Part shown: positions 50,161 through 64,000 of the stretch, one piece after another
Position numbering within the stretch: position 1 is the stretch's first letter
Layout: every line of letters starts with the position of its first letter
Assembly: GCF_020281205.1 (NCBI RefSeq)
Contig: NZ_JACXZC010000002.1
Coordinates: 1-64,000, forward strand
From: Empedobacter stercoris
GTDB taxonomy: Bacteria > Bacteroidota > Bacteroidia > Flavobacteriales > Weeksellaceae
DNA length: 64,000 bases
Direction: 5' to 3'
The notes under the pieces: generated by a model
What the model was told of the DNA's origin: nothing
Seen by the model: only the letters and a program-made list of their open reading frames with translations
Databases searched by the model: none
Made by a program: the position numbers and the translations under genes

Positions 50161-50285
50161 TACGTTTAATATTTATAACTTCTGTAAAGTTAAATTGAAT
50201 ATTAAAACAGAACTAATTTTGTTGAAATTATTTCATTTTATATGAAAGAGATTTCTCAATACCTCGAAATGATATACTATATGGG

Positions 50286-50379
50286 ATTCTTCGACAAGCT
50301 AAGAGTGACAACGAATCTGAATATTGAAAAAGGTTGAAAAAAATGTCATATGATTTGGAGGCGAGTGTCAAAAAGTTGA
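50286..50379 (+). repeat. long direct repeat, copy 1 (copy 2 at 51330-51423)
   Basis: GAATCTGAATATTGAAAAAG, then a nearly identical run through GTCATATGATTTGGAG to GTGTCAAAAAGTTGA. About 67 bp are nearly identical to 51357-51423; the preceding TTCTTCGACAAGCT part is more diverged. Confidence 0.85.
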
Positions 50380-50507
50380 AAGTCATGGTTAAAATGTTTT
50401 ACTGTTTGCGTAGCAAATGATTTAAAACATTGAATGACTGAAACTAATTTTGACCGTTGAAAATCAAAGACAAGTCTTTTTTCGTTAGTTTTTTTGACTG
50501 TTCCCCG
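50346..50507 (-). repeat. body repeat, copy A (minus orientation)
   Basis: Read on the minus strand after CTTCGGGGAA: ACTAACGAAAAAAGACTTGT, then TCAACGGTCAAAATTAG, AATGTTTTAAATCATTTGC and GACACTCGCCTCCAAATC. It aligns in order with copies E and D. Confidence 0.6.
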
Positions 50508-50577
50508 AAGGGCATATGAATACCGATAAGTAAAATATATATTCAATGAATAAAAAAGTGACAGAAAGTATTTTACA
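50501..50577 (+). repeat. head-tail repeat, copy A
   Basis: TTCCCCGAAGGGCATATGAA followed by TACCGATAAGTAAAATA and ATGAATAAAAAAGTGACAG. The same order is seen at 50977-51050 and 51137-51206. Confidence 0.85.
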
Positions 50578-50588
50578 TTCATTTTTTC

Positions 50589-50745
50589 CTTGATGAAAAA
50601 ACGAAACAAAAAAATCAAGTCTATGCTTACAAGTCGGTCAATAATGGCTATTCGCTAAATGCTTTAAATCATTCGCATATAAAATGCGAAAAGTAAATCA
50701 TTTTTAACGCTCTTTACGCCGAATTGACGCTCGACTCTTCAGCAA
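50589..50745 (+). repeat. body repeat, copy E (plus orientation, head lost)
   Basis: CTTGATGAAAAAACGAAAC, AATCAAGTCTATGCTT, GGTCAATAATGGCTATTCGC, GCTTTAAATCATTCGC, TTTTTAACGCTCTTTACGCC and GAATTGACGCTCGACTC follow in the same order as copies A and D. The CTTCGGGG head is absent. Confidence 0.6.
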
Positions 50746-50920
50746 GGACGGTTTATAAATTAGTTGTTATAAACGAATTCGAATGTTTAAATAGGAATTA
50801 AAAAAATCCGACGATTTAGAATCGAAATGTAATTCAACTCTAAATTATTGAAATTAAAAAGTTGGAGTGTTTGAGTGGAGCGAGTTGCCAACTTTAAGAA
50901 AATAATTTAGTTAGTTGAAT

Positions 50921-51050
50921 TACCTGAGCCATACCATGGCTCCTCCTCTTAATCTCAAATGTTTTTTTGGATGAGCTTCCCCGAAGGGCATATGAATACC
51001 GACAATAAAAATACATAAGCTATGAATAAAAAAATGAAAGGAAGAAATGA
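50921..51050 (+). repeat. compound repeat, copy B (hairpin plus head-tail)
   Basis: TACCTGAGCCATACCATGGC (hairpin GAGCCAT-ACC-ATGGCTC), then CTCCTCTTAATCTCAAAT, a T run, GGATGAGCTTCCCCGAAGGG and the CATATGAATACCGA tail. Copy C at 51067-51206 repeats this order 146 bp later. Confidence 0.85.
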
Positions 51051-51066
51051 AAATAAAGAAAAGGAA

Positions 51067-51206
51067 TACCTGAGCCATACCATGGCTCCTCCTTTTAATT
51101 TCAAATTTTTAATTTCAATTTTTTTTTTGGATGAGCTTCCCCGAAGGGCATATGAATACCGATAATTAAAATAGATAAGTAATGAATAAAAAAGTGACAG
51201 AAAGAT
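51067..51206 (+). repeat. compound repeat, copy C (hairpin plus head-tail)
   Basis: Same order as copy B: TACCTGAGCCATACCATGGC, CTCCTTTTAATTTCAAAT, a T run, GGATGAGCTTCCCCGAAGGG, then ATACCGATAATTAAAATAG and AATAAAAAAGTGACAGAAAG. Its tail is closer to copy A than to copy B. Confidence 0.85.
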
Positions 51207-51263
51207 TCTTCAAGAAATTTTAATGTTCATTTTCATTCCTGATTTTTTACATTTACTTTAATA

Positions 51264-51337
51264 GATTGAAGCTCGTCTGCAAATCGTATGTCGACTCTAA
51301 AATTGGTTGTTAAAAGTGGATGAGGTTGAGATTCTTC
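51264..51337 (+). repeat. 74-bp direct repeat, copy 1 (copy 2 at 51666-51739)
   Basis: Runs from GATTGAAGCTCGTCTGCAAA through GTATGTCGACTCTAAAATTG to GATGAGGTTGAGATTCTTC. It matches 51666-51739 at all but one position. Confidence 0.9.
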
Positions 51338-51423
51338 TACAAGCCCAGAATGATATCGAATCTGAATATTGAAAAAGGTTGAAAAAATGTCATATGATTT
51401 GGAGACGAGTGTCAAAAAGTTGA
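51330..51423 (+). repeat. long direct repeat, copy 2 (copy 1 at 50286-50379)
   Basis: GAATCTGAATATTGAAAAAG and the following 47 bases match 50314-50379 with one length difference in an A run and one substitution (GGAGACGAG against GGAGGCGAG). Confidence 0.85.
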
Positions 51424-51515
51424 GATAAAGAATTTTAAATTAAAAGGAGAAGCTCTGGTTGAGCTTAGGTATATATGTTCATTTTTATTCATGATTTTTT
51501 TTATTGTTTTCAAAT

Positions 51516-51739
51516 GAATTCATATGCCCTTCGGGGAAGTCTTGACACAAAAACGAACCAAAAAGGTCAAGACTTCGATTTTCGCCGTTCAATCATCATT
51601 TTACTCACTAAAAAGATTAAATGATTCGCATAGGCTCACTAATCTTTTTTACGTTCGTTTCAATGGATTGAAGCTCGTCTGCAAATCGTATGTCGACTCT
51701 AAAATTGGTTGTTAAAAGTGGATGAGGTTAAGATTCTTC
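51516..51739 (+). repeat. head plus body repeat, copy D (plus orientation)
   Basis: ATTCATATGCCCTTCGGGGAA (51518-51538) is the reverse complement of the head found at 50501, 50977 and 51137. It is followed by the body: AAAAACGAACCAAAAAGGTC, GACTTCGATTTTCGCCGTTC, AGATTAAATGATTCGC, TTTTTTACGTTCGTTTC. The last part is copy 2 of the 74-bp repeat. This is the most complete unit in the window. Confidence 0.75.
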
Positions 51740-51898
51740 AAGAATTATTAATATTCATTTTCATTCCTGATTTATTGTAAAGCGTTTAAAATTACTTTTA
51801 AAACACTCACGCATAATATTACAGCAATAAAAGCTTTGGAATTCAGCTTCTATTTACTCATTTTTAGTGAATTGGTGTTTATATTTAGAGATTTTGAC

Positions 51899-53120: not shown

Positions 53121-54167
53121 ATGAAAACAATATTAATTACAGGTGGAGCTGGTTTTATCGGTTCGCATGTTGTAAGAGAATTTGTCTTAAAATACCCAGA
53201 AACAAAAATTATCAATCTTGATGCATTGACATATGCTGGGAATTTGGAGAATTTGAAAGATATCGAATCTTATCCAAATTACGAATTTGTAAAAGCGGAC
53301 ATTGTTGATGCAAAACATATTTTAGAAATTTTTGAACACTATCAACCCGATGGTGTCATTCATTTAGCTGCCGAATCACATGTGGATCGTTCGATTACGA
53401 ATCCATTAGAATTTGTGATGACCAATGTGATTGGAACAGTTAATTTATTGAATGCTGCAAAACATATTTGGAAAGATAATTTTGAGGGGAAACGTTTTCA
53501 TCATGTTTCGACAGATGAGGTGTTTGGTGCTTTGGGAGACGAAGGTTTTTTTACAGAAGAAACATCGTATGATCCGCATTCGCCTTATTCGGCATCCAAA
53601 GCGTCTTCAGATCATTTTGTAAGAGCGTACCATGATACCTATGGATTACCAATTGTCATGACGAATTGCTCAAACAATTATGGACCTAATCATTTTCCAG
53701 AAAAATTGATTCCATTGTGTATTCACAACATCTTAAACGGAAATCCACTTCCAATATACGGCGATGGAAAATATACGCGCGATTGGTTGTTTGTGATTGA
53801 TCATGCGAAAGCGATTGATTTGGTTTTCCACGAAGGTAAAAATGGAGAATCTTACAATGTAGGAGGTTTCAATGAGTGGCAAAACATCGACTTGGTGAAA
53901 GAATTATGTAAGCAAATGGATGAAAAATTAGGGAAAGAAGCAGGAACTTCGGAGCAATTAATCACCTTTGTAAAAGACCGTCCAGGACATGATTTACGTT
54001 ATGCCATTGATGCCACAAAAATCAACGAAGAGTTAGGATGGAAACCAAGTGTGACTTTTGAGCAAGGTTTGAGTCTAACTATCGATTGGTTTTTAACAAA
54101 CAAAGAATGGCTAGACAATGTGACGTCTGGTGATTACCAAAATTATTACGAAAAACAATATAATTAA
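53121..54167 (+). CDS. rfbB: dTDP-glucose 4,6-dehydratase
   Basis: 348 residues, normal RfbB/RmlB length. The NAD-binding motif is ITGGAGFIGSHV (residues 6-17), active-site residues are in HVSTDEVFGALGDEGFF and the YxxxK pair in SPYSASKASSDHFV. It converts dTDP-glucose to dTDP-4-keto-6-deoxyglucose, the substrate of the aminotransferase encoded at 59991. The thymidylyltransferase gene (rfbA) that normally makes dTDP-glucose is not in the window, nor are rfbC or rfbD, so the rhamnose branch is not encoded here. Confidence 0.95.
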   Translation: MKTILITGGAGFIGSHVVREFVLKYPETKIINLDALTYAGNLENLKDIESYPNYEFVKADIVDAKHILEIFEHYQPDGVIHLAAESHVDRSITNPLEFVMTNVIGTVNLLNAAKHIWKDNFEGKRFHHVSTDEVFGALGDEGFFTEETSYDPHSPYSASKASSDHFVRAYHDTYGLPIVMTNCSNNYGPNHFPEKLIPLCIHNILNGNPLPIYGDGKYTRDWLFVIDHAKAIDLVFHEGKNGESYNVGGFNEWQNIDLVKELCKQMDEKLGKEAGTSEQLITFVKDRPGHDLRYAIDATKINEELGWKPSVTFEQGLSLTIDWFLTNKEWLDNVTSGDYQNYYEKQYN

Positions 54168-54221: not shown

Positions 54222-55082
54222 ATGAGTTTAGACTCGAATAAGAATCAAGAATGGTCACAAGTGATCGAATCTAAATCTTCTCTCTTTTCATTGAATTTGA
54301 AAGAAGTTTGGCGATACAAAGATCTGGTGTATATGCTTGTGAAGAGAGATTTTGTAACCTCTTTTAAACAAACTATTTTAGGCCCTTTGTGGTTTTTTAT
54401 TAATCCAATTTTTACAACAATCATGTATGTGATTGTTTTTGGGAATATTGCAAACTTATCAACAGATGGTGCACCGCAAATTCCTTTTTATTTGTCAGGA
54501 GTTATTCTATGGAATTATTTTTCTTCTTGTCTTAATAATACATCAAATGTCTTTAGAGGAAACGCCTCTATTTTTGGGAAAGTTTATTTTCCGCGTTTGG
54601 TTATGCCTTTAGCAATTGTAACGTCTAACCTAATGCAGTTTGCTGTGCAATTTTGTCTTTTCTTAGGTTTTTTAATCTATTACTTGATTGTAGACCAAAA
54701 TGTTCACCCTAACTTATGGGTATTGGCGACACCATTTTTGATTGTATTAATGGCAGCTTTTGCGATGGGGGCAGGAATGATTTTTTCTTCCATGACCACA
54801 AAATACAAAGATTTGTCGATGCTACTTAGTTTTGGTGTTTCGTTGTATATGTATGTAACACCAGTTGTCTATCCTGTGTCTTCAATTCCTGAAAAATACA
54901 GATGGATTGCAGATATTAATCCTTTAACAGGTATCTTCGAATGTTTTAAATATGCTTATTTAGGCGTGGGAGATTTCAATGTTGGAATGTTACTTTATTC
55001 CACTGTTTTTATATTTAGTATTTTATTGATTGGAACCGTTATCTTCAATAAAGTCGAAAAATCATTTATGGATACTGTTTAA
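54222..55082 (+). CDS. polysaccharide ABC transporter permease (Wzm type)
   Basis: 286 residues with six predicted membrane helices. The N-terminal cytoplasmic part (WRYKDLVYMLVKRDFVTSFK) leads into ILGPLWFFINPIFTTIMYVI, a hallmark of O-antigen/teichoic-acid type exporters. The C-terminal half has LSFGVSLYMYVTPVVYPVSS and the PLTGIFECFKYAYLG loop. It forms the membrane channel that exports a finished, lipid-linked glycan, paired with the ATPase encoded 16 bases downstream. Confidence 0.93.
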   Translation: MSLDSNKNQEWSQVIESKSSLFSLNLKEVWRYKDLVYMLVKRDFVTSFKQTILGPLWFFINPIFTTIMYVIVFGNIANLSTDGAPQIPFYLSGVILWNYFSSCLNNTSNVFRGNASIFGKVYFPRLVMPLAIVTSNLMQFAVQFCLFLGFLIYYLIVDQNVHPNLWVLATPFLIVLMAAFAMGAGMIFSSMTTKYKDLSMLLSFGVSLYMYVTPVVYPVSSIPEKYRWIADINPLTGIFECFKYAYLGVGDFNVGMLLYSTVFIFSILLIGTVIFNKVEKSFMDTV

Positions 55083-55098
55083 TTAGTAAGAATTTATT

Positions 55099-56361
55099 AT
55101 GTCAAAAAATATAGTTTTAGATGTCGAAAATGTTTCGAAACAGTATCGTTTAGGTGAAGTAGGAACAGGTTCATTGCAACACGATATCAAACGTTGGTGG
55201 GCAAATGTAAGAGGACAAGAAGACCCATTTCTTAAAATTGGAGAAACCAATGACCGTACACAGAAAGGAGATTCTGACTATGTATGGGCGTTAAAAGATA
55301 TTAATTTTCAAGTAGAGCAAGGACAGGCTGTCGGAATTATTGGTCGTAATGGAGCAGGTAAATCAACCTTATTGAAGTTACTTTCTCGTGTAACCAAACC
55401 AACTACGGGTTCTATCAAATACAAAGGTCGTATCGCTTCGTTGTTAGAAGTGGGGACTGGCTTTCACCCAGAAATGACGGGTCGTGAAAATATTTATTTG
55501 AACGGTGCTATTCTTGGAATGACACGAAAAGAAATCACCCGAAAGTTTGATGAAATTGTAGCCTTTGCAGGTGTAGAGCGCTATATCGATACTCCTGTTA
55601 AACGTTATTCGTCAGGAATGTATGTTCGTTTAGCATTTGCTGTTGCCGCACATTTAGAATCGGAAATCTTAATCGTTGATGAGGTCTTAGCAGTGGGCGA
55701 TGCAGAGTTTCAGAAGAAATGTTTGGGGAAAATGGGCGATGTAACCAAAGGAGAAGGACGAACGGTGCTTTTTGTGAGTCATAATATGACAGCTGTTGAG
55801 ACACTATGCACAAATGCTGTATCTATGCGTCAGGGTACTATTGTTGATGTAGGGCAGCCAGAACTTTTGATTAAAAACTATTTGGCAGATAGTATCACAA
55901 ATTGTAGGCAGATAGAATTTGAAGATATTAGCAAAGCTAAAGGCAATGAGTATGTAAGGATTAAATCTGCTTCAATTAATAATCTATCAACTTTAGATCC
56001 AGCTGAAACAATTGATGTTACATCAGATATAGAAATTGTTTTTGAAATAGTGAATCAAACCAAAGAAGAGAAACTCTCATTAGGTTTTGATTTAAAAAAT
56101 ACACGAGGAGATGTGATTTTTGGAACGGGTAATAAATTTAATTTTCCGATTGATATTCCAACAAAAATATCGTGTCAAATTCCTGGGAATTTATTGAATG
56201 ATGATACGTATCAAATTTTACTTTATATACATACTGAAGGGATGAGCTCTTTATATGCAGAAGATGAAATATTAAGTTTTGAGATAAAAGATATAGCTAG
56301 AGAAAGTGGATATTTAGGAAAAGTTAATGGTTTTATTCGGCCTCAGTTAATTTGGAAATAG
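55099..56361 (+). CDS. polysaccharide ABC transporter ATP-binding protein (Wzt type) with C-terminal glycan-binding domain
   Basis: 420 residues. The ATPase domain (about 1-260) has Walker A GIIGRNGAGKST, an ABC signature reduced to RYSSGMYVRLAF as usual in this family, and Walker B EILIVDEVLAVGDAEF, with switch His in FVSHNMTAVE. The extra domain (about 265-420, EIVFEIVNQTKEEKLSLGFD, then FEIKDIAR) matches the Wzt C-terminal carbohydrate-binding sandwich that recognises a modified chain end. So export probably depends on a terminal cap on the glycan. The next gene starts two bases after its stop. Confidence 0.94.
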   Translation: MSKNIVLDVENVSKQYRLGEVGTGSLQHDIKRWWANVRGQEDPFLKIGETNDRTQKGDSDYVWALKDINFQVEQGQAVGIIGRNGAGKSTLLKLLSRVTKPTTGSIKYKGRIASLLEVGTGFHPEMTGRENIYLNGAILGMTRKEITRKFDEIVAFAGVERYIDTPVKRYSSGMYVRLAFAVAAHLESEILIVDEVLAVGDAEFQKKCLGKMGDVTKGEGRTVLFVSHNMTAVETLCTNAVSMRQGTIVDVGQPELLIKNYLADSITNCRQIEFEDISKAKGNEYVRIKSASINNLSTLDPAETIDVTSDIEIVFEIVNQTKEEKLSLGFDLKNTRGDVIFGTGNKFNFPIDIPTKISCQIPGNLLNDDTYQILLYIHTEGMSSLYAEDEILSFEIKDIARESGYLGKVNGFIRPQLIWK

Positions 56362-56363
56362 CT

Positions 56364-58238
56364 ATGTTAAGAAAATTGTATGATAAAAAAATACCAGCAA
56401 TAGGTTTAGCAATTTTTAGAATTGCTTATTGTTTGGTTCTATTTGCAGAAATAGTACAGTTTTATTATTTTCGACATTTAATTTTTGACAAAGTACCTTA
56501 TTTAGATCAAGCAGAAATCAATTTTGGAATTCCGATTGCGATCTGGGGTATTTCCGTATTATTTATTGCGTTTGGATTATTTACCAGAACAGCAACAATT
56601 GTTAATTATTTATTAAGTTTAATATTAATAGGGAGCATAACTACTTATGAATATCACATGTTCTACGCTTACATGGGAATTAATTTTTTGTTGATGTTCC
56701 TACCTATTTCAAGAGTTTTATCTATTGATAGACTTTTATTAAAATATAAATATTCTAATACAAAATTTGAATATAATCCTCCAGCAGAAGTAAGTGTACT
56801 TGCTTATTTTATACCTATTTTAGTTGGGGTCGCATTTGTTTATTTTGATTCCATATTTTTTAAGTTATCGTCTGACTTTTGGATGAAAGGGCTAGGAATG
56901 TGGTTGCCAACATCTGTACCACCAATTATTTTAAATGATTTACAATTTTTGTTAAATCAAGAATATTTAATGTATTTTTTAGGGTATTTAACTTTGGTAT
57001 TCGAAGCGATATTCTTGTTTACATTTTTTAGAAAAAGATGGAGAGTTCCTCTTCTAATAATTGGTATAGGTTTGCACGTTGGTATTTTAATCTGTTATCC
57101 TATTCCTTGGTTTGCATTAGGAATGTGTAGTTTGTATTTATTAATGGTGCCAATAAGTTGGTGGGCTCTATTTTTTGGAACAAACAAGAAAAGATTACCA
57201 ACAATTACGTTTTATTATGATGGAGAATGTCCCTTATGTAATCGTACCAAAATAACGATAAAGCACTTTGATATTTTCAAGAAAATAGAGTTTAAAACAG
57301 TTCAATATTATGCTGAACAAGAACCATTGCTAAAAGATATTCCTTACGATACATTATTAGATGATATACATTCTATAAAAAACGGAAAAGTTTACAAAGG
57401 TTTAGATACTTATATACAGGTTTTGAATAGTATGATCTATACAAAACCATTGAGTTGGATGTTGAGATTAACTGGTATTTATCATTTAGGAAAAGTAGTA
57501 TATGCTTATATAGCAAAAAACCGAAATACAGAACATTGTACAGAAGAAAACTGTGGTTATACACCACCTGTAATTCCTCCAAAAGAAGAAGAATTGAAAT
57601 TACTTCATAATTTTACTTTAAAAGATTTGAAGATAAAAATCATAACAGCCGGTGTTTTAGCTTTATGTCTTTTGCAATTAATTATTTCGTATAACTCTGA
57701 CCTTAATGTAGATATAAGACAAGAAATAGGTGTAGAAGACAAGAAACTTAATAAAAAAATTGAGAAGACAGCTAAAAGTATCGAATCAATTGGACAAACT
57801 TATATGGGGATTACGCATCACGCTGTTTTTATGGATTACCATTTTAGCGAGTACAATCACATTATAGCACTTACACATATTGATAAAAATACAAAACAAG
57901 AGATATGGTTGCCAATTGTTAATAAGAATGGTACACCTGGGAAATATCAAGTAGGACCAATATGGTGTAAATGGTCTTTTCGTGTAAATGGTAACACCAT
58001 AGATCAAAATAACTTAGAAAAAGGGATTCGAGATTTTACAGCATTTTGGGCTTATAAAAATGGTGCCGATTTGAATGACGCTACCTTCACTATCAAAGTA
58101 AAAAAAATAGATACACCTAAGAGTTGGGAAAAAGATTTCTTGAAAAAGCAAATGCAAAAACCTTGGAAAGATGTAGGTACAGCGCGTTGGAGAGATAAAG
58201 AATATTTTATTGACATACCAATAATAGAAGAATTATGA
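56364..58238 (+). CDS. HTTM-type membrane protein fused to a DCC1 thiol-disulfide oxidoreductase domain
   Basis: 624 residues from ATG 56364; a TTG four codons earlier overlaps the Wzt stop. The first about 280 residues have multiple membrane helices and resemble HTTM (vitamin-K-dependent carboxylase-like) domains (AIGLAIFRIAYCLVLFAEIV). Residues about 285-400 are a DCC1/DUF393 domain with a thioredoxin-like motif YDGECPLCNRTKI (CxxC) and GLDTYIQVLNSMIYT. A further membrane helix (about 435-455) and a periplasmic or external tail of about 170 residues follow. Family function is unknown. Its place between an exporter and sugar-modifying genes, with a 4-bp overlap to the next gene, is unusual. 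Confidence 0.85.
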   Translation: MLRKLYDKKIPAIGLAIFRIAYCLVLFAEIVQFYYFRHLIFDKVPYLDQAEINFGIPIAIWGISVLFIAFGLFTRTATIVNYLLSLILIGSITTYEYHMFYAYMGINFLLMFLPISRVLSIDRLLLKYKYSNTKFEYNPPAEVSVLAYFIPILVGVAFVYFDSIFFKLSSDFWMKGLGMWLPTSVPPIILNDLQFLLNQEYLMYFLGYLTLVFEAIFLFTFFRKRWRVPLLIIGIGLHVGILICYPIPWFALGMCSLYLLMVPISWWALFFGTNKKRLPTITFYYDGECPLCNRTKITIKHFDIFKKIEFKTVQYYAEQEPLLKDIPYDTLLDDIHSIKNGKVYKGLDTYIQVLNSMIYTKPLSWMLRLTGIYHLGKVVYAYIAKNRNTEHCTEENCGYTPPVIPPKEEELKLLHNFTLKDLKIKIITAGVLALCLLQLIISYNSDLNVDIRQEIGVEDKKLNKKIEKTAKSIESIGQTYMGITHHAVFMDYHFSEYNHIIALTHIDKNTKQEIWLPIVNKNGTPGKYQVGPIWCKWSFRVNGNTIDQNNLEKGIRDFTAFWAYKNGADLNDATFTIKVKKIDTPKSWEKDFLKKQMQKPWKDVGTARWRDKEYFIDIPIIEEL

Positions 58239-59350
58239 AAATAGCAATACTTGGTGCAAGTTATCTTCAATTACCATTAGTAGAGAAAGCGAAAGCTAAT
58301 GGAATAGAAACACATTGTTTTGCTTGGGATGATGGAAAAGCAGTTTGCAAGGAAGTTGCAGATTATTTTTATGATATTTCTGTTTTAGAAAAAGAAACTA
58401 TTTTAGAGAAATGTCAAGAAATAAATATTGATGGAATATTAACTATTGCAACAGATATTTGTGTTCCGACTATTTCATATGTTGCAGCAAAGATGAATTT
58501 GATCGGTAATTCTTTGCAAACCGCTTTGTTAACAACGAATAAAGGACTGATGAGAGATTGTTTCCATACACATAATATCCCATCACCTGCACACAGAACA
58601 ATTACAGACATTAAACAGCTTTCTGCTATAGAGAATACATTTCCGTTAATTGTTAAACCTGTGGATCGATCAGGTAGCTTAGGCGTTAAAAAAGTATCCC
58701 ATCAAAAAGAGTTATTGGATGCTGTAGAAGAAAGCTTAAGCTATTCTTTTGAGAAAACATGCATTGTAGAAGAGTACATTTCAGGTGTAGAAGTTAGTGT
58801 TGAAACATTAAGCTGGAAAGGCGAACATCAAATCGTAAACATTACTGATAAGGTACTCTCTCCAGAACCTTATTTTGTGGAAATTGCCCATCATCAGCCC
58901 ACGACATTACACGCTTCATTACAAGAAAAAATTAAAAAAATTGCTTTGAATACCTTAAGAGCAACTAATATCGAGTTTGGCGCATCTCATATAGAAATGA
59001 AAATCACCGAAGCTGGAAATGTCTATGTCATAGAAATTGGAAGCCGTATGGGTGGTGACTTTATAGGTTCAGATTTGGTGAAATTATCTACAGGCATAGA
59101 CTATTTACAATGTGTATTAGATATCGCTCTGAATCAATTTAATTGGCAAGAAAGTATTCCAAAATATAACCGATATGCGGGTGTTTATTTTTATTGTAAA
59201 GAAACGCAATCATTAAATCCTTATTTCCAGAAAGAATATGAATGGACGGTGAAGAAAGAAATTCTTAATGATGATTTAAAATTAATAAAAAGTAGCAATG
59301 ACCGTTCAGGCTATCTTATCTATCAATCTGATAAAAAAATTGAATTATGA
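58235..59350 (+). CDS. ATP-grasp ligase
   Basis: 371 residues. The N-terminal pre-ATP-grasp domain (KIAILGASYLQLPLVEKAK) is followed by the ATP-grasp fold with the ATP-binding lysine in FPLIVKPVDRSGSLGVKKVS (about residues 132-151), CIVEEYISGVEVSVETLS, and the metal-binding end VYVIEIGSRMGGDFIGSDLV. Such enzymes join a carboxylate to an amine or thiol via an acyl-phosphate. The gene overlaps the genes on both sides by 4 bp. Its position before a NeuD-type acyltransferase and a sugar aminotransferase suggests that it attaches an amino acid or other carboxylate to an amino sugar. That substrate is inferred only. Confidence 0.9.
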   Translation: MKIAILGASYLQLPLVEKAKANGIETHCFAWDDGKAVCKEVADYFYDISVLEKETILEKCQEINIDGILTIATDICVPTISYVAAKMNLIGNSLQTALLTTNKGLMRDCFHTHNIPSPAHRTITDIKQLSAIENTFPLIVKPVDRSGSLGVKKVSHQKELLDAVEESLSYSFEKTCIVEEYISGVEVSVETLSWKGEHQIVNITDKVLSPEPYFVEIAHHQPTTLHASLQEKIKKIALNTLRATNIEFGASHIEMKITEAGNVYVIEIGSRMGGDFIGSDLVKLSTGIDYLQCVLDIALNQFNWQESIPKYNRYAGVYFYCKETQSLNPYFQKEYEWTVKKEILNDDLKLIKSSNDRSGYLIYQSDKKIEL

Positions 59351-59979
59351 CACGTATCGCTATTGTAGGTTCTGGACATTTGGGACAACAAATTGCTTAT
59401 CATATTCACCAAGATACTGGTGATAAAGTTGTTGCTTTCTTTGACGAGTATAAAGAGAAAGATACATTGGTGGATAATATTCCTGTAATTGGTGGAAACA
59501 ATGATATTGAAGAAGCTTATAAAAGCAAACAATTTGACGAAATACTTATTGCAATAGGCTACAAACATCTTGATTTTAAAAAGGCAATTTTTGATAAATT
59601 AATTAATAAAATTCCTTTTTATACTTTTATACATTCTTCAGTTTACATCGATCCAAGTGCAAAAATAGGAAGAGGTACAGTTGTTTATCCTGGCTGTATA
59701 CTAGATCAATATGTAGAAATTGGTGATAATGTCTTACTTAATATAGGATGTGCAATTGCACATGACAGCCAAATAGGAAGTCATTCTTTTTTATCTCCAA
59801 GAGTGAGTATTGCTGGATTTGTAAAAGTAGAAGAGTTATGTATATTAGGAATTAATTCTACCATTATAGATAACATACGAATAACAACTAAAGTCCAAAT
59901 AGGAGGAGCTACAGTCGTAATCAAAAACTTAGAAAAACCAGGCTTATATGTTGGTAATCCTGCAAGATTTATAAAATAA
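59347..59979 (+). CDS. NeuD/PglD family sugar acyltransferase (left-handed beta-helix)
   Basis: 210 residues. The N-terminal Rossmann-like domain (IAIVGSGHLGQQIAYHI) is typical of NeuD/PglD proteins. The C-terminal half consists of hexapeptide repeats (SAKIGRGTVVYPGCILDQYV onward), with the catalytic His probably in CAIAHDSQIGSHSF, and ends GLYVGNPARFIK. PglD-type enzymes acetylate the 4-amino group of a UDP-sugar; a dTDP-4-amino sugar is the likely acceptor here. It overlaps the ATP-grasp gene by 4 bp and is 11 bases before rffA. Confidence 0.92.
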   Translation: MTRIAIVGSGHLGQQIAYHIHQDTGDKVVAFFDEYKEKDTLVDNIPVIGGNNDIEEAYKSKQFDEILIAIGYKHLDFKKAIFDKLINKIPFYTFIHSSVYIDPSAKIGRGTVVYPGCILDQYVEIGDNVLLNIGCAIAHDSQIGSHSFLSPRVSIAGFVKVEELCILGINSTIIDNIRITTKVQIGGATVVIKNLEKPGLYVGNPARFIK

Positions 59980-59990
59980 AAAATACACAA

Positions 59991-61142
59991 ATGACCATAC
60001 CTTTCAATAAACCATTCATTATTGGTAATGAACTAAAATATATAGAAGAAGCTGTACAATCTGGTAAAATATCTGGAGACGGATTATTTACCAAAAAATG
60101 TCAACAGTTTTTCGAAGAAAAATATAATTTTCCAAAAGTGTTGTTAACAACATCTTGTACTGATGCTTTAGAAATGGCGGCTATACTTTGCGACATCAAA
60201 GAAGGTGATGAAGTAATTGTTCCAAGTTATACTTTTGTTTCTTCTGCTAATGCATTCGCGTTACGTGGTGCGAAAATAGTCTTTGTCGATTCTTATGCAG
60301 ATAATCCGAATATAGCCCCAAAAGAAATAGAAAAACACATCACTTCCAAAACCAAAGTCATCGTTCCTGTACATTATGCAGGCGTAGCTTGTGACATGGA
60401 AGCGATTATGAGTCTTGCCGAAAAACACAAGTTGTTTGTCGTAGAAGATGCGGCACAAGCCATAGATAGTTATTATACGTTTTCTGATGGAACTAAAAAA
60501 GCATTAGGTTCAATTGGTCACTTCTCGGCATTTTCTTTTCATGAAACCAAAAACATCATTGCAGGAGAGGGAGGGATGTTGGTGATAAATGATGAAAATT
60601 ATTTTGAAAGAGCAGAAATTATTCGTGAAAAAGGAACCAATAGAAGTGCGTTTTTTAGAGGAGAAGTGAATAAATATGGTTGGGTAGATTTAGGATCATC
60701 ATTTTTACCATCAGAAATCATTTCTGCATTCTTGTATGCACAATTAGAAAATTTAGATAAAATTCAAGCAAAGCGTGTAGCAATTTGGAATCGATATCAA
60801 AATGGATTAGCAGATCTAGCAACAAATACTAAAATCCAGTTACCTGTCATTCCAGATTTTGCGACTAATAATGCACACATGTTTTATATTGTTTGTAAAA
60901 ATTACGATGAAAGAACGGCATTAATAAGCCATCTAAAAAAAGAAGATATTCATCCAGTATTTCATTATTTAAGTTTAAATAAAAGCGAATTTTTCTTGAA
61001 AAACAACGAAGAAATCAATATCCCAAATTCTGATAAATTTACGGATTGCTTGTTACGTTTGCCTTTCTATTATGAATTGACAGAACATGAGCAAGATTTA
61101 ATCATATCTGAAATCAAACAATTCTATAATGGAGAAAACTAA
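59991..61142 (+). CDS. rffA: dTDP-4-amino-4,6-dideoxygalactose transaminase
   Basis: 383 residues of the DegT/DnrJ/EryC1 family. It resembles enterobacterial RffA/WecE: MTIPFNKPFIIGNELKYIEE, DEVIVPSYTFVSSANAFALR and VIVPVHYAGVACDMEAIMSL are characteristic, and the pyridoxal-phosphate lysine is in FSAFSFHETKNIIAGEGG. It transfers an amino group from glutamate to dTDP-4-keto-6-deoxyglucose, giving dTDP-4-amino-4,6-dideoxygalactose (Fuc4N). With RfbB in the same operon this route is well supported. The stop lies 14 bp inside the next gene. Confidence 0.94.
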   Translation: MTIPFNKPFIIGNELKYIEEAVQSGKISGDGLFTKKCQQFFEEKYNFPKVLLTTSCTDALEMAAILCDIKEGDEVIVPSYTFVSSANAFALRGAKIVFVDSYADNPNIAPKEIEKHITSKTKVIVPVHYAGVACDMEAIMSLAEKHKLFVVEDAAQAIDSYYTFSDGTKKALGSIGHFSAFSFHETKNIIAGEGGMLVINDENYFERAEIIREKGTNRSAFFRGEVNKYGWVDLGSSFLPSEIISAFLYAQLENLDKIQAKRVAIWNRYQNGLADLATNTKIQLPVIPDFATNNAHMFYIVCKNYDERTALISHLKKEDIHPVFHYLSLNKSEFFLKNNEEINIPNSDKFTDCLLRLPFYYELTEHEQDLIISEIKQFYNGEN

Positions 61143-62292
61143 AATTCTTTTTGTAGTTGCTGGGTTTTATAGAGCAGGTGCCGAACGTTTTGCTTATGAA
61201 ATCGACCGAGCATTAGATAAAAATAAATTTGATTTAACTATTTTATCTTTAGAACAAGAAAAAAAAGTATCTAAACTGTGGAATGTTAGATATTATGAAA
61301 ACTTACACAAAGAACAAGGTGCTGAAATTAGGTATATTGATGATTTTATAGATAAGAGATTTTATGAAAAAAATAGGTTGCGTAATAAAATAAAACGTCA
61401 ACTTGGATTATTTCCTAAATATATAGATCTATGGAAAATTGATAAGTTGTCAAAATATATGGATCAATATGATGTTATTCATTGGATGGGGGAGTATATT
61501 TTTATAAATAATATTCCAAATAGAATCAAAGAAAAAAGTTTGATTCATATGATGACCGCAAGGTTTCAGAAAAATGATTTATATGATAATTTTGATCACT
61601 CATTCAATTTTAATTTCTGTACTCCGTTTAAGAAAGAAGAATTAAAGTACGAACTGGAACAGTTTGTAAGTTATCATTCTACATTTATTCCCTTGGTCAT
61701 GAAGATTGATAAGAATAATAAAAAGTGGAAATTTAGAGAACAACATATAAAAAAAATAGGAATATTTACGAGATTAGATCCATTTAAACCATTAGATCCA
61801 TTTTTCTATTCTTTCCAATTATTGTTAGATAGATTTCCTAATGTTGAATTACATATTTTTGGCAATGGAAATCCTAAAGAACATCGAATGATTGATATGT
61901 TAGAGAGGTTAGGAATTCAAGATAATGTTTTTTTTAGAGGACATCAAGAAGATATTGTAGAAACAGCAATTAATGAAGAGTTATCTTTGTCTTGGTTTCA
62001 GGGGTATAACAATGACAGACCCGCAGGATATGCAGGTTTAGATATCTGTACAACAGGAACACCTCTTATTTGTTGGGATTTTTCTCCTAAACCAAATAAT
62101 TTTGAAAACCCAATTTATCCACATTACAAAAATCTTAATAAGTTTGTTGATAAAACTTTGCAGATTTTAACCGATGAGGTTGAGGCTTCAAATTTGTCAG
62201 ATAAGCAATATTATGATGTTATAAATAATAGAGATGTTGATGATTATATTAATATTGTTGAAAATGAATATATTAGGATTAAAAAAAACTAA
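61129..62292 (+). CDS. glycosyltransferase (GT4-like)
   Basis: 387 residues. The N-terminus (KTKILFVVAGFYRAGAERFA) and the later nucleotide-binding half (KIGIFTRLDPFKPLDPFFYS, then VELHIFGNGNP, DNVFFRGHQEDI) show the GT-B fold. The usual GT4 E-x7-E motif is not clear: the region reads SLSWFQGYNNDRPAGYAGLD, so the donor-binding loop differs from standard members. It should add a sugar to the growing lipid-linked glycan in the cytoplasm. Start at ATG 61129 overlaps rffA by 14 bp. A/T content and codon use are more extreme than in ugd-rfbB. Confidence 0.85.
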   Translation: MEKTKILFVVAGFYRAGAERFAYEIDRALDKNKFDLTILSLEQEKKVSKLWNVRYYENLHKEQGAEIRYIDDFIDKRFYEKNRLRNKIKRQLGLFPKYIDLWKIDKLSKYMDQYDVIHWMGEYIFINNIPNRIKEKSLIHMMTARFQKNDLYDNFDHSFNFNFCTPFKKEELKYELEQFVSYHSTFIPLVMKIDKNNKKWKFREQHIKKIGIFTRLDPFKPLDPFFYSFQLLLDRFPNVELHIFGNGNPKEHRMIDMLERLGIQDNVFFRGHQEDIVETAINEELSLSWFQGYNNDRPAGYAGLDICTTGTPLICWDFSPKPNNFENPIYPHYKNLNKFVDKTLQILTDEVEASNLSDKQYYDVINNRDVDDYINIVENEYIRIKKN

Positions 62293-63461: not shown

Positions 63462-64000
63462 ATGGCAAAGTTAGACAGTTTATTTGGTATCCGAGGAAAA
63501 GTAGGAGATTTGATCTTTTTTGAACGTAATGGCCAATCATTTGTCAAAAAAAATACAGGAGGGTTTGTAAATGGAAAATCCCATGAACACCCAAATACCA
63601 AAGCCGCACAACAACGTTTCAAAGAAGTCGCCACATTCGTAGGGCGTTTTAAAAAAGCAATTAATCCTTTGATATGGCGTCAAAAAGATGGAACCTTTCA
63701 CAATCAATTGGTATCATTCTTTTCTAAGGTTAGAAAACAATCGGATCAAGAAAATTTATATTTAGCATTGAAACAAGCTTATGAGGAACGGAGGCTTCAA
63801 CAACTAAAATTAAATAAAAACTCGAAATTATATCCGTTGGATTGTTCTTATTCGTTGGAGAAGAACAGCTTGGTGATAAGCATGAATCTACTTCGATCTT
63901 GTGCTCAAAAACACCCTAATTCGTGCTTAGAGATTTCATTTGCATGGATGCAGTGTGACGAAAGTTTAGAATTAGACCTCGTCAATCTACAGTGTTTCTA
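63462..64000 (+). CDS. protein of unknown function (DUF6266-like), 3' end outside the window
   Basis: An open frame from ATG 63462 to the window edge, at least 179 residues. It begins MAKLDSLFGIRGKVGDLIFF with ERNGQSFVKKNTGG, then HPNTKAAQQRFKEVATFVGR. This N-terminal layout (repeated Gly, an Arg-Asn-Gly turn, then an NTxAQ-type stretch) recalls a Bacteroidota family of about 200-250 residues annotated as DUF6266, from memory. No signal peptide or membrane helix. Function unknown. It is not an obvious glycan gene, so it probably marks the right border of the operon. Confidence 0.75.
   Translation, partial: MAKLDSLFGIRGKVGDLIFFERNGQSFVKKNTGGFVNGKSHEHPNTKAAQQRFKEVATFVGRFKKAINPLIWRQKDGTFHNQLVSFFSKVRKQSDQENLYLALKQAYEERRLQQLKLNKNSKLYPLDCSYSLEKNSLVISMNLLRSCAQKHPNSCLEISFAWMQCDESLELDLVNLQCF

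Follow-up and report, generated by a model that had tools for sequence, protein, structure and literature searches.

An ATP-grasp ligase gene constantly paired with RffA in Bacteroidota polysaccharide loci, a candidate for aminoacylation of 4-amino-4,6-dideoxygalactose

Three adjoining genes in Empedobacter stercoris

We analyzed a window of 64,000 nucleotides from Empedobacter stercoris (positions 1 to 64,000 of contig NZ_JACXZC010000002.1, assembly GCF_020281205.1), in which three adjoining forward-strand genes encode an ATP-grasp carboxylate-amine ligase (58235-59350; 371 amino acids), an N-acetyltransferase of the NeuD/PglD/VioB type, here called NeuD (59347-59979; 210 amino acids), and an RffA/WecE aminotransferase acting on dTDP-4-keto-6-deoxyglucose (dTDP, deoxythymidine diphosphate), here called RffA (59991-61142; 383 amino acids). 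The aminotransferase belongs to the synthesis of dTDP-4-amino-4,6-dideoxygalactose (dTDP-Fuc4N); the ligase is a candidate for adding an amino acid to the 4-amine of this sugar, and NeuD a candidate for capping the amino acid once it is ligated. The ATP-grasp and NeuD open reading frames overlap by 4 bases (ATGA), and an 11-base gap separates the NeuD stop from RffA.

The families that a preliminary description had assigned to the three genes were borne out by profile matches. The ATP-grasp protein matches PF13535 (ATP-grasp_4; E 3e-24) and fits no curated equivalog family; D-alanine--D-alanine ligase was rejected as its identity, the TIGR01205 score of 66.4 bits lying far below the cut-off of 245.65. 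NeuD scores 172.4 bits against TIGR03570 (NeuD/PglB/VioB; cut-off 160.8) and consists of PglD_N (PF17836) and hexapeptide (PF00132) domains. It aligns with VioB (7txp), PglD and PerB, its closest solved relatives, and keeps the active-site histidine of the left-handed helix (IAHD, aligned to LSHG of VioB and IEHE of PglD). RffA matches two curated families, NF008687 (569.2 bits; cut-off 375) and TIGR02379 (521.4 bits; cut-off 434.85), and its best solved structure is Escherichia coli WecE (4piw; E 6e-126), with the pyridoxal-phosphate lysine motif SFHETKN aligned. The 4-keto sugar would come from the dTDP-glucose 4,6-dehydratase RfbB, encoded upstream on the same strand (53121-54167; TIGR01181 463 bits, cut-off 365). 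These families, and the obligate co-occurrence of the ATP-grasp gene with RffA reported below, support the earlier suggestion that RfbB and RffA lead to dTDP-Fuc4N, so that the sugar of the locus would be Fuc4N, with a galacto (axial) 4-amine.

The AlphaFold2 model of the ATP-grasp protein (pLDDT 93.9, pTM 0.91) is nearest to the L-amino acid ligase BL00235 (3vot; Z 40.5, root-mean-square deviation 2.4 over 357 residues), followed by 4dim (Z 36.0), BacD/YwfE (3wnz and 3wo1; Z 35.2) and RizA (4wd3; Z 30.4), with other ATP-grasps at about 33 or less. The fold is common to the window protein and the L-amino acid ligases BL00235, BacD/YwfE and RizA over the full length, although the window protein is shorter (371 amino acids against 411-470 in BL00235 and BacD). 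In a profile alignment, its residues D74, E216, H219, E254, E267, R271 and G274 coincide with BacD E109, E273, H276, E311, E324, R328 and G331 (chain numbers minus 2), which we take to be amino-acid and Mg/ATP residues, and all seven are invariant in 50 relatives with 46-64% identity to the window protein. The position of BacD W332 is occupied by an invariant aspartate, Asp275. Unlike the L-amino acid ligases, the window enzyme has a sugar aminotransferase as its genomic partner, suggesting that its acceptor is probably a nucleotide sugar and not an amino acid. No relatives of the ATP-grasp protein were found in viral contigs.

RffA is the constant partner of the ATP-grasp ligase

An orthologue of the ATP-grasp gene was present in 10 of 395 genomes of the order, and all 10 carried RffA, vs 22 of the 385 others (32/395 overall; Fisher p=3e-12); in two of the ten, G013 and G026, RffA lay on another contig than the ATP-grasp gene. 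We further sampled 80 ATP-grasp loci from named Bacteroidota genomes. RffA (56-86% identity) followed within 8.1 kb downstream of the ATP-grasp gene in 69 of them; two others had a different DegT aminotransferase together with a nucleoside diphosphate-hexose 2,3-dehydratase, and nine, several of them at contig ends, had no RffA in the stretch examined. More distant ATP-grasp relatives (27-34% identity) located beside other DegT aminotransferases (L028-L032) were left out of the statistics. The association is thus far beyond chance. According to the preliminary description, its proposal would fall if most carriers of the ligase lacked 4-amino-sugar genes; these counts point the other way, and the obligate co-occurrence with RffA supports its view that the ligase acts on dTDP-Fuc4N. 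As a separate observation, at loci L086 and L104 the genes that follow ATP-grasp are pyrI, flavin reductase and nusB-type ones, and no RffA lies in the vicinity.

Unlike the pair itself, the genes between its members vary. Among 71 ATP-grasp loci, NeuD was found between the two genes in 34, a formyltransferase of 223 amino acids in 6 (Chryseobacterium indologenes L037 among them), a methyltransferase in 2 and none of these three in 29; four loci (L069, L073, L082 and L087) have no gene at all between ATP-grasp and RffA. Other genes seen in this position encode FabG/FabH, HpcH/MaoC, short-chain dehydrogenases/reductases (SDR), membrane acyltransferases, ArnC-like proteins, small EamA proteins and extra ATP-grasps, including ATPgrasp_ST. 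Mapped on the ATP-grasp tree, the state of this position must have changed at least 23 times. ATP-grasp and RffA are therefore the constant pair, and NeuD is optional.

Two further arrangements were noticed. Loci L077, L081 and L084 have three different ATP-grasps before RffA (AG, AG2 and a PF14397 ATPgrasp_ST protein). At L050, L065, L090, L100 and others, an ArnC-like glycosyltransferase and paired small EamA proteins adjoin ATP-grasp/RffA, which suggests an Arn-like, lipid-linked export of the sugar in Flavobacterium and Bacteroidales.

Ligases exclude direct acylases and attract caps

The distribution of acyl-modifying genes was compared over 133 RffA-type loci, comprising the 71 ATP-grasp loci and 62 RffA loci from order, genus and phylum samples (60/62 without this ATP-grasp). 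We counted as a ligase this ATP-grasp, a PylC-like ATP-grasp or WbqC, and as a direct acylase, expected to acylate Fuc4N itself, either a WecD-like GCN5-related N-acetyltransferase (GNAT) or a 289-amino-acid formyltransferase with both formyl-transferase domains. Direct acylases occurred in 0/83 ligase loci vs 18/50 ligase-free loci (p=2e-9). The WecD-like GNAT stands at some other RffA loci of Bacteroidota (L145, L160, L148 and L150), and in L161 (7484-9274) RffA is fused to an N-terminal WecD-like GNAT.

NeuD behaved in the opposite way: in the RffA-sampled set it accompanied 9/12 ligase loci vs 4/50 ligase-free ones (p=6e-6), and among these four, L191 and L192 have NeuD beside other genes. 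L159, considered as a further case of NeuD and RffA without a ligase, was rejected as it carries WbqC. The 223-amino-acid formyltransferase was restricted to ATP-grasp loci and the methyltransferase to ligase loci. Phylogenetically independent pairs on supported branches gave the same picture: direct acylases were opposed to ligases in about 7/11 pairs and together with them in none (median p 0.016), while caps went with ligases in about 8/11 (median p 0.016).

The ligase itself has natural replacements. In the Chryseobacterium-like loci L143, L146 and L149, an SDR, a PylC-like ATP-grasp and a phosphatase of the haloacid dehalogenase family (HAD) replace the ATP-grasp gene, while NeuD (64-67%) and RffA (80-82%) are retained. 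WbqC-family proteins, which are unrelated to ATP-grasp and whose gene we take to originate from the E. coli O121 locus, stand in its place with NeuD in L147, L159, L194 and L198, and with the methyltransferase in L162 and L196.

The simplest reading of these distributions would be a competition of ligases and direct acylases for one amine, with NeuD, the formyltransferase and the methyltransferase acting on a second one introduced by the ligase, suggesting that the ligated acid is an amino acid. In the preliminary description both NeuD and the ATP-grasp enzyme had been placed on the 4-amino group; the exclusion of direct N-acylases and the attraction of NeuD, formyl and methyl caps do not support this, and a single amine cannot take both alternatives in one product.

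A proposed aminoacylation of Fuc4N and its alternatives

We propose the following pathway. RmlA, encoded elsewhere, and RfbB would provide dTDP-4-keto-6-deoxyglucose, which RffA would convert to dTDP-Fuc4N. The ATP-grasp enzyme would take an amino acid, probably a small one, activate its carboxylate as an acyl phosphate and couple it to the Fuc4N nucleotide at the 4-amine. NeuD would then acetylate the amino group of the ligated amino acid, and the resulting N-acetyl-aminoacyl-Fuc4N unit would enter the polysaccharide exported by Wzm/Wzt. The cap would be an accessory that can be exchanged (acetyl, formyl, methyl and probably 3-hydroxyacyl) or missing altogether. We consider it probable that the ligase adds an amino acid to Fuc4N and that NeuD caps it; the sugar itself, the choice of an amino acid, and of a small one, as donor, and ligation ahead of capping are inferred.

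Several points weigh against this proposal. VioB, PglD and PerB, the characterized enzymes of the NeuD family, transfer acetyl directly to the nucleotide sugar, at its 4-amine. At locus L189, NeuD accompanies HpcH/MaoC and RffA and the vicinity holds no ligase, so that in some cases Fuc4N itself may be the acceptor of a NeuD-like enzyme. The ATP-grasp protein and the amino acid ligases have only 17-24% sequence identity, and the donor could be another acid. Finally, the loci were sampled by relatedness and are not fully independent, and the orthology thresholds were set by us; the tree-based tests lessen this bias but do not remove it.

The first of these points leads to an alternative in which dTDP-Fuc4N is the direct substrate of NeuD, its 4-amine being acetylated to give Fuc4NAc in the way that VioB treats dTDP-Qui4N, and the ATP-grasp enzyme has a different target in the same glycan, either another group or another sugar. 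The solved relatives of NeuD and locus L189 are in its favor, but we regard it as unlikely, given the rarity of NeuD with RffA where no ligase is present, the count of 0/71 for ATP-grasp together with alternative Fuc4N acylases, and the 29/71 ATP-grasp loci without NeuD, formyl- or methyltransferase, in which the ATP-grasp enzyme cannot depend on a NeuD product. Somewhat more doubtful is a variant of the proposed ligation in which the acid joined to the 4-amine is not an amino acid but malate, 2-hydroxyglutarate, lactate or similar. Among flavobacterial fish pathogens, O-antigens with malic and 2-hydroxyglutaric acids in amide linkage are known (PMC3210612), and the HpcH/MaoC or FabG/FabH genes of some loci would make hydroxy acids; however, the acetyl-, formyl- and methyltransferases tied to ligases imply that the group being added has a free amine, and the residues aligned with the presumed amino-acid pocket of BacD are invariant. 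An inverted order with the same product, NeuD acetylating the free amino acid before the ATP-grasp enzyme ligates it, is improbable: gene layout alone does not fix the sequence of the steps, but the NeuD family has a nucleotide-sugar-binding N-terminal domain (PglD_N), and the four ligase loci without any cap mean that the ligase must also take uncapped donors.

Beyond the proposed single aminoacylation, a broader scheme can be offered tentatively. Bacteroidota may load amino acids on Fuc4N by at least three unrelated, interchangeable modules (the ATP-grasp; SDR, PylC-like ATP-grasp and phosphatase; WbqC), followed by exchangeable caps, and loci with two or three ATP-grasps, such as L077, L081 and L084, might build a short peptide on the sugar without a template. 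If this were true, the surface glycan of multi-ATP-grasp loci would bear a combinatorial peptide-like epitope.

Relation to known acylated 4-amino sugars

Qui4N is the C4 epimer of Fuc4N, and the acyl groups known on it are comparable to those predicted here. Formyl, acetyl, N-acetylglycyl (in E. coli O121) and N-[(R)-3-hydroxybutyryl]-L-alanyl substituents have been described on it, and Pseudoalteromonas contains 4-(N-acetyl-D-alanyl)amino-4,6-dideoxyglucose (PMC3210612); the hydroxybutyryl-alanyl form of Qui4N in Proteus vulgaris O4 is cited in PMC8074265. These groups would match the gene sets ligase plus NeuD and ligase plus FabG/FabH plus NeuD, the E. coli O121 O-antigen being alike in the predicted type of product, an N-acetyl-aminoacyl group on the 4-amine. 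In the literature accessible to us, our search found no paper linking an ATP-grasp ligase to Fuc4N or Qui4N, and the main text of a Proteus O-antigen paper mentions no ATP-grasp, alanyl or Qui4N.

Other systems resemble parts of the locus. In enterobacterial common antigen synthesis, RffA/WecE makes what is expected to be the same sugar and works with WecD; a WecD-like GNAT is absent in the window, which has ATP-grasp and NeuD instead. The VioA/VioB (dTDP-Qui4NAc) and PglE/PglD systems likewise combine an aminotransferase with a NeuD-family acetyltransferase in a 4-amino-4,6-dideoxyhexose pathway; unlike them, loci of the window type have an extra ATP-grasp as the constant partner and an optional acetyltransferase. 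An amino acid on a sugar amine is also known in Bacteroidota, where VimA of Porphyromonas gingivalis and Tannerella forsythia places Ser or Gly (PMC7468200), but VimA is a GNAT-like transferase acting on a 2,3-diamino uronic acid, with no ATP-grasp.

O-antigen structures with aminoacylated and N-acyl-aminoacylated 4-amino sugars have been on record for decades, and the ATP-grasp/RffA pair is a concrete candidate for the ligation step. With its swappable caps, the constant pair would also allow unusual N-acyl groups to be predicted from Bacteroidota genomes.

Neighboring genes and strain variation

The three genes belong to a longer run in the order ugd, rfbB, wzm, wzt, HTTM/DCC, ATP-grasp, NeuD, RffA and glycosyltransferases, all those located here being on the forward strand. 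Wzm is an ABC-2 polysaccharide export permease (54222-55082; PF01061) and Wzt an export ATPase with a C-terminal extension (55099-56361; PF00005). The HTTM/DCC gene (56352-58238, with ATG at 56364 as an alternative start) encodes an HTTM-like membrane protein with a DCC1-like thiol-disulfide oxidoreductase domain (PF04134; E 4e-19) and overlaps the ATP-grasp gene by 4 bases; a group 1 glycosyltransferase gene directly after RffA (61129-62292; PF00534) overlaps RffA by 14 bases. The short distances within the triad agree with its description as genes made together in a shared operon, but this coupling extends beyond the three to wzm, wzt, HTTM/DCC and the glycosyltransferase, and tight packing alone does not set the triad apart, since HTTM/DCC and the glycosyltransferase overlap their neighbors too. 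The HTTM/DCC gene adjoins ATP-grasp in Chryseobacterium and some Flavobacteriaceae loci and is retained in L149, where the ATP-grasp gene is replaced. ATP-grasp, RffA and rmlA are each present in a single copy in the source genome, rmlA outside the locus.

It had been suggested that the C-terminal domain of Wzt recognizes the modified end of the glycan. This domain matches PF14524 (Wzt_C) with 19.6 bits, under the gathering score of 30.4. Across the compared loci the ATPase domain is 68-85% identical, and the C-terminal domain is close only to those of L147 (62%) and L158 (54%), both of which lack this ATP-grasp and have other acyl modules; in triad-carrying loci its identity does not exceed 27%, where it can be detected at all. 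Relatives of the glycosyltransferase at 61129 follow RffA only in the same two loci (66% in L147, 40% in L158). The domain therefore travels with this glycosyltransferase and not with the triad, leaving recognition of the modified end unsupported, and it more likely reads a feature made by the glycosyltransferase.

Within the source genus, the triad is present in G402, and in G403 and G395 RffA is preceded by a formyltransferase. G407, another genome of the source species, carries neither ATP-grasp nor RffA: it retains rfbB (99%) and the far flank, and the genes from wzm through the glycosyltransferases are replaced. The locus behaves as a serotype locus, and such strain-to-strain replacement suggests that the group contributes to surface-antigen variation. 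Amid the replaced polysaccharide locus, the gene at 63462-64000 (L018:3462-4178) is found in G407 at 99% identity. At the other end of the run, the intergenic stretch before ugd (50246-51760) is a mosaic of interspersed repeats with the motif CTTCCCCGAAGGGCATATGAATACCGA, which has more than 100 partial matches, in scattered clusters, in another genome of the species.

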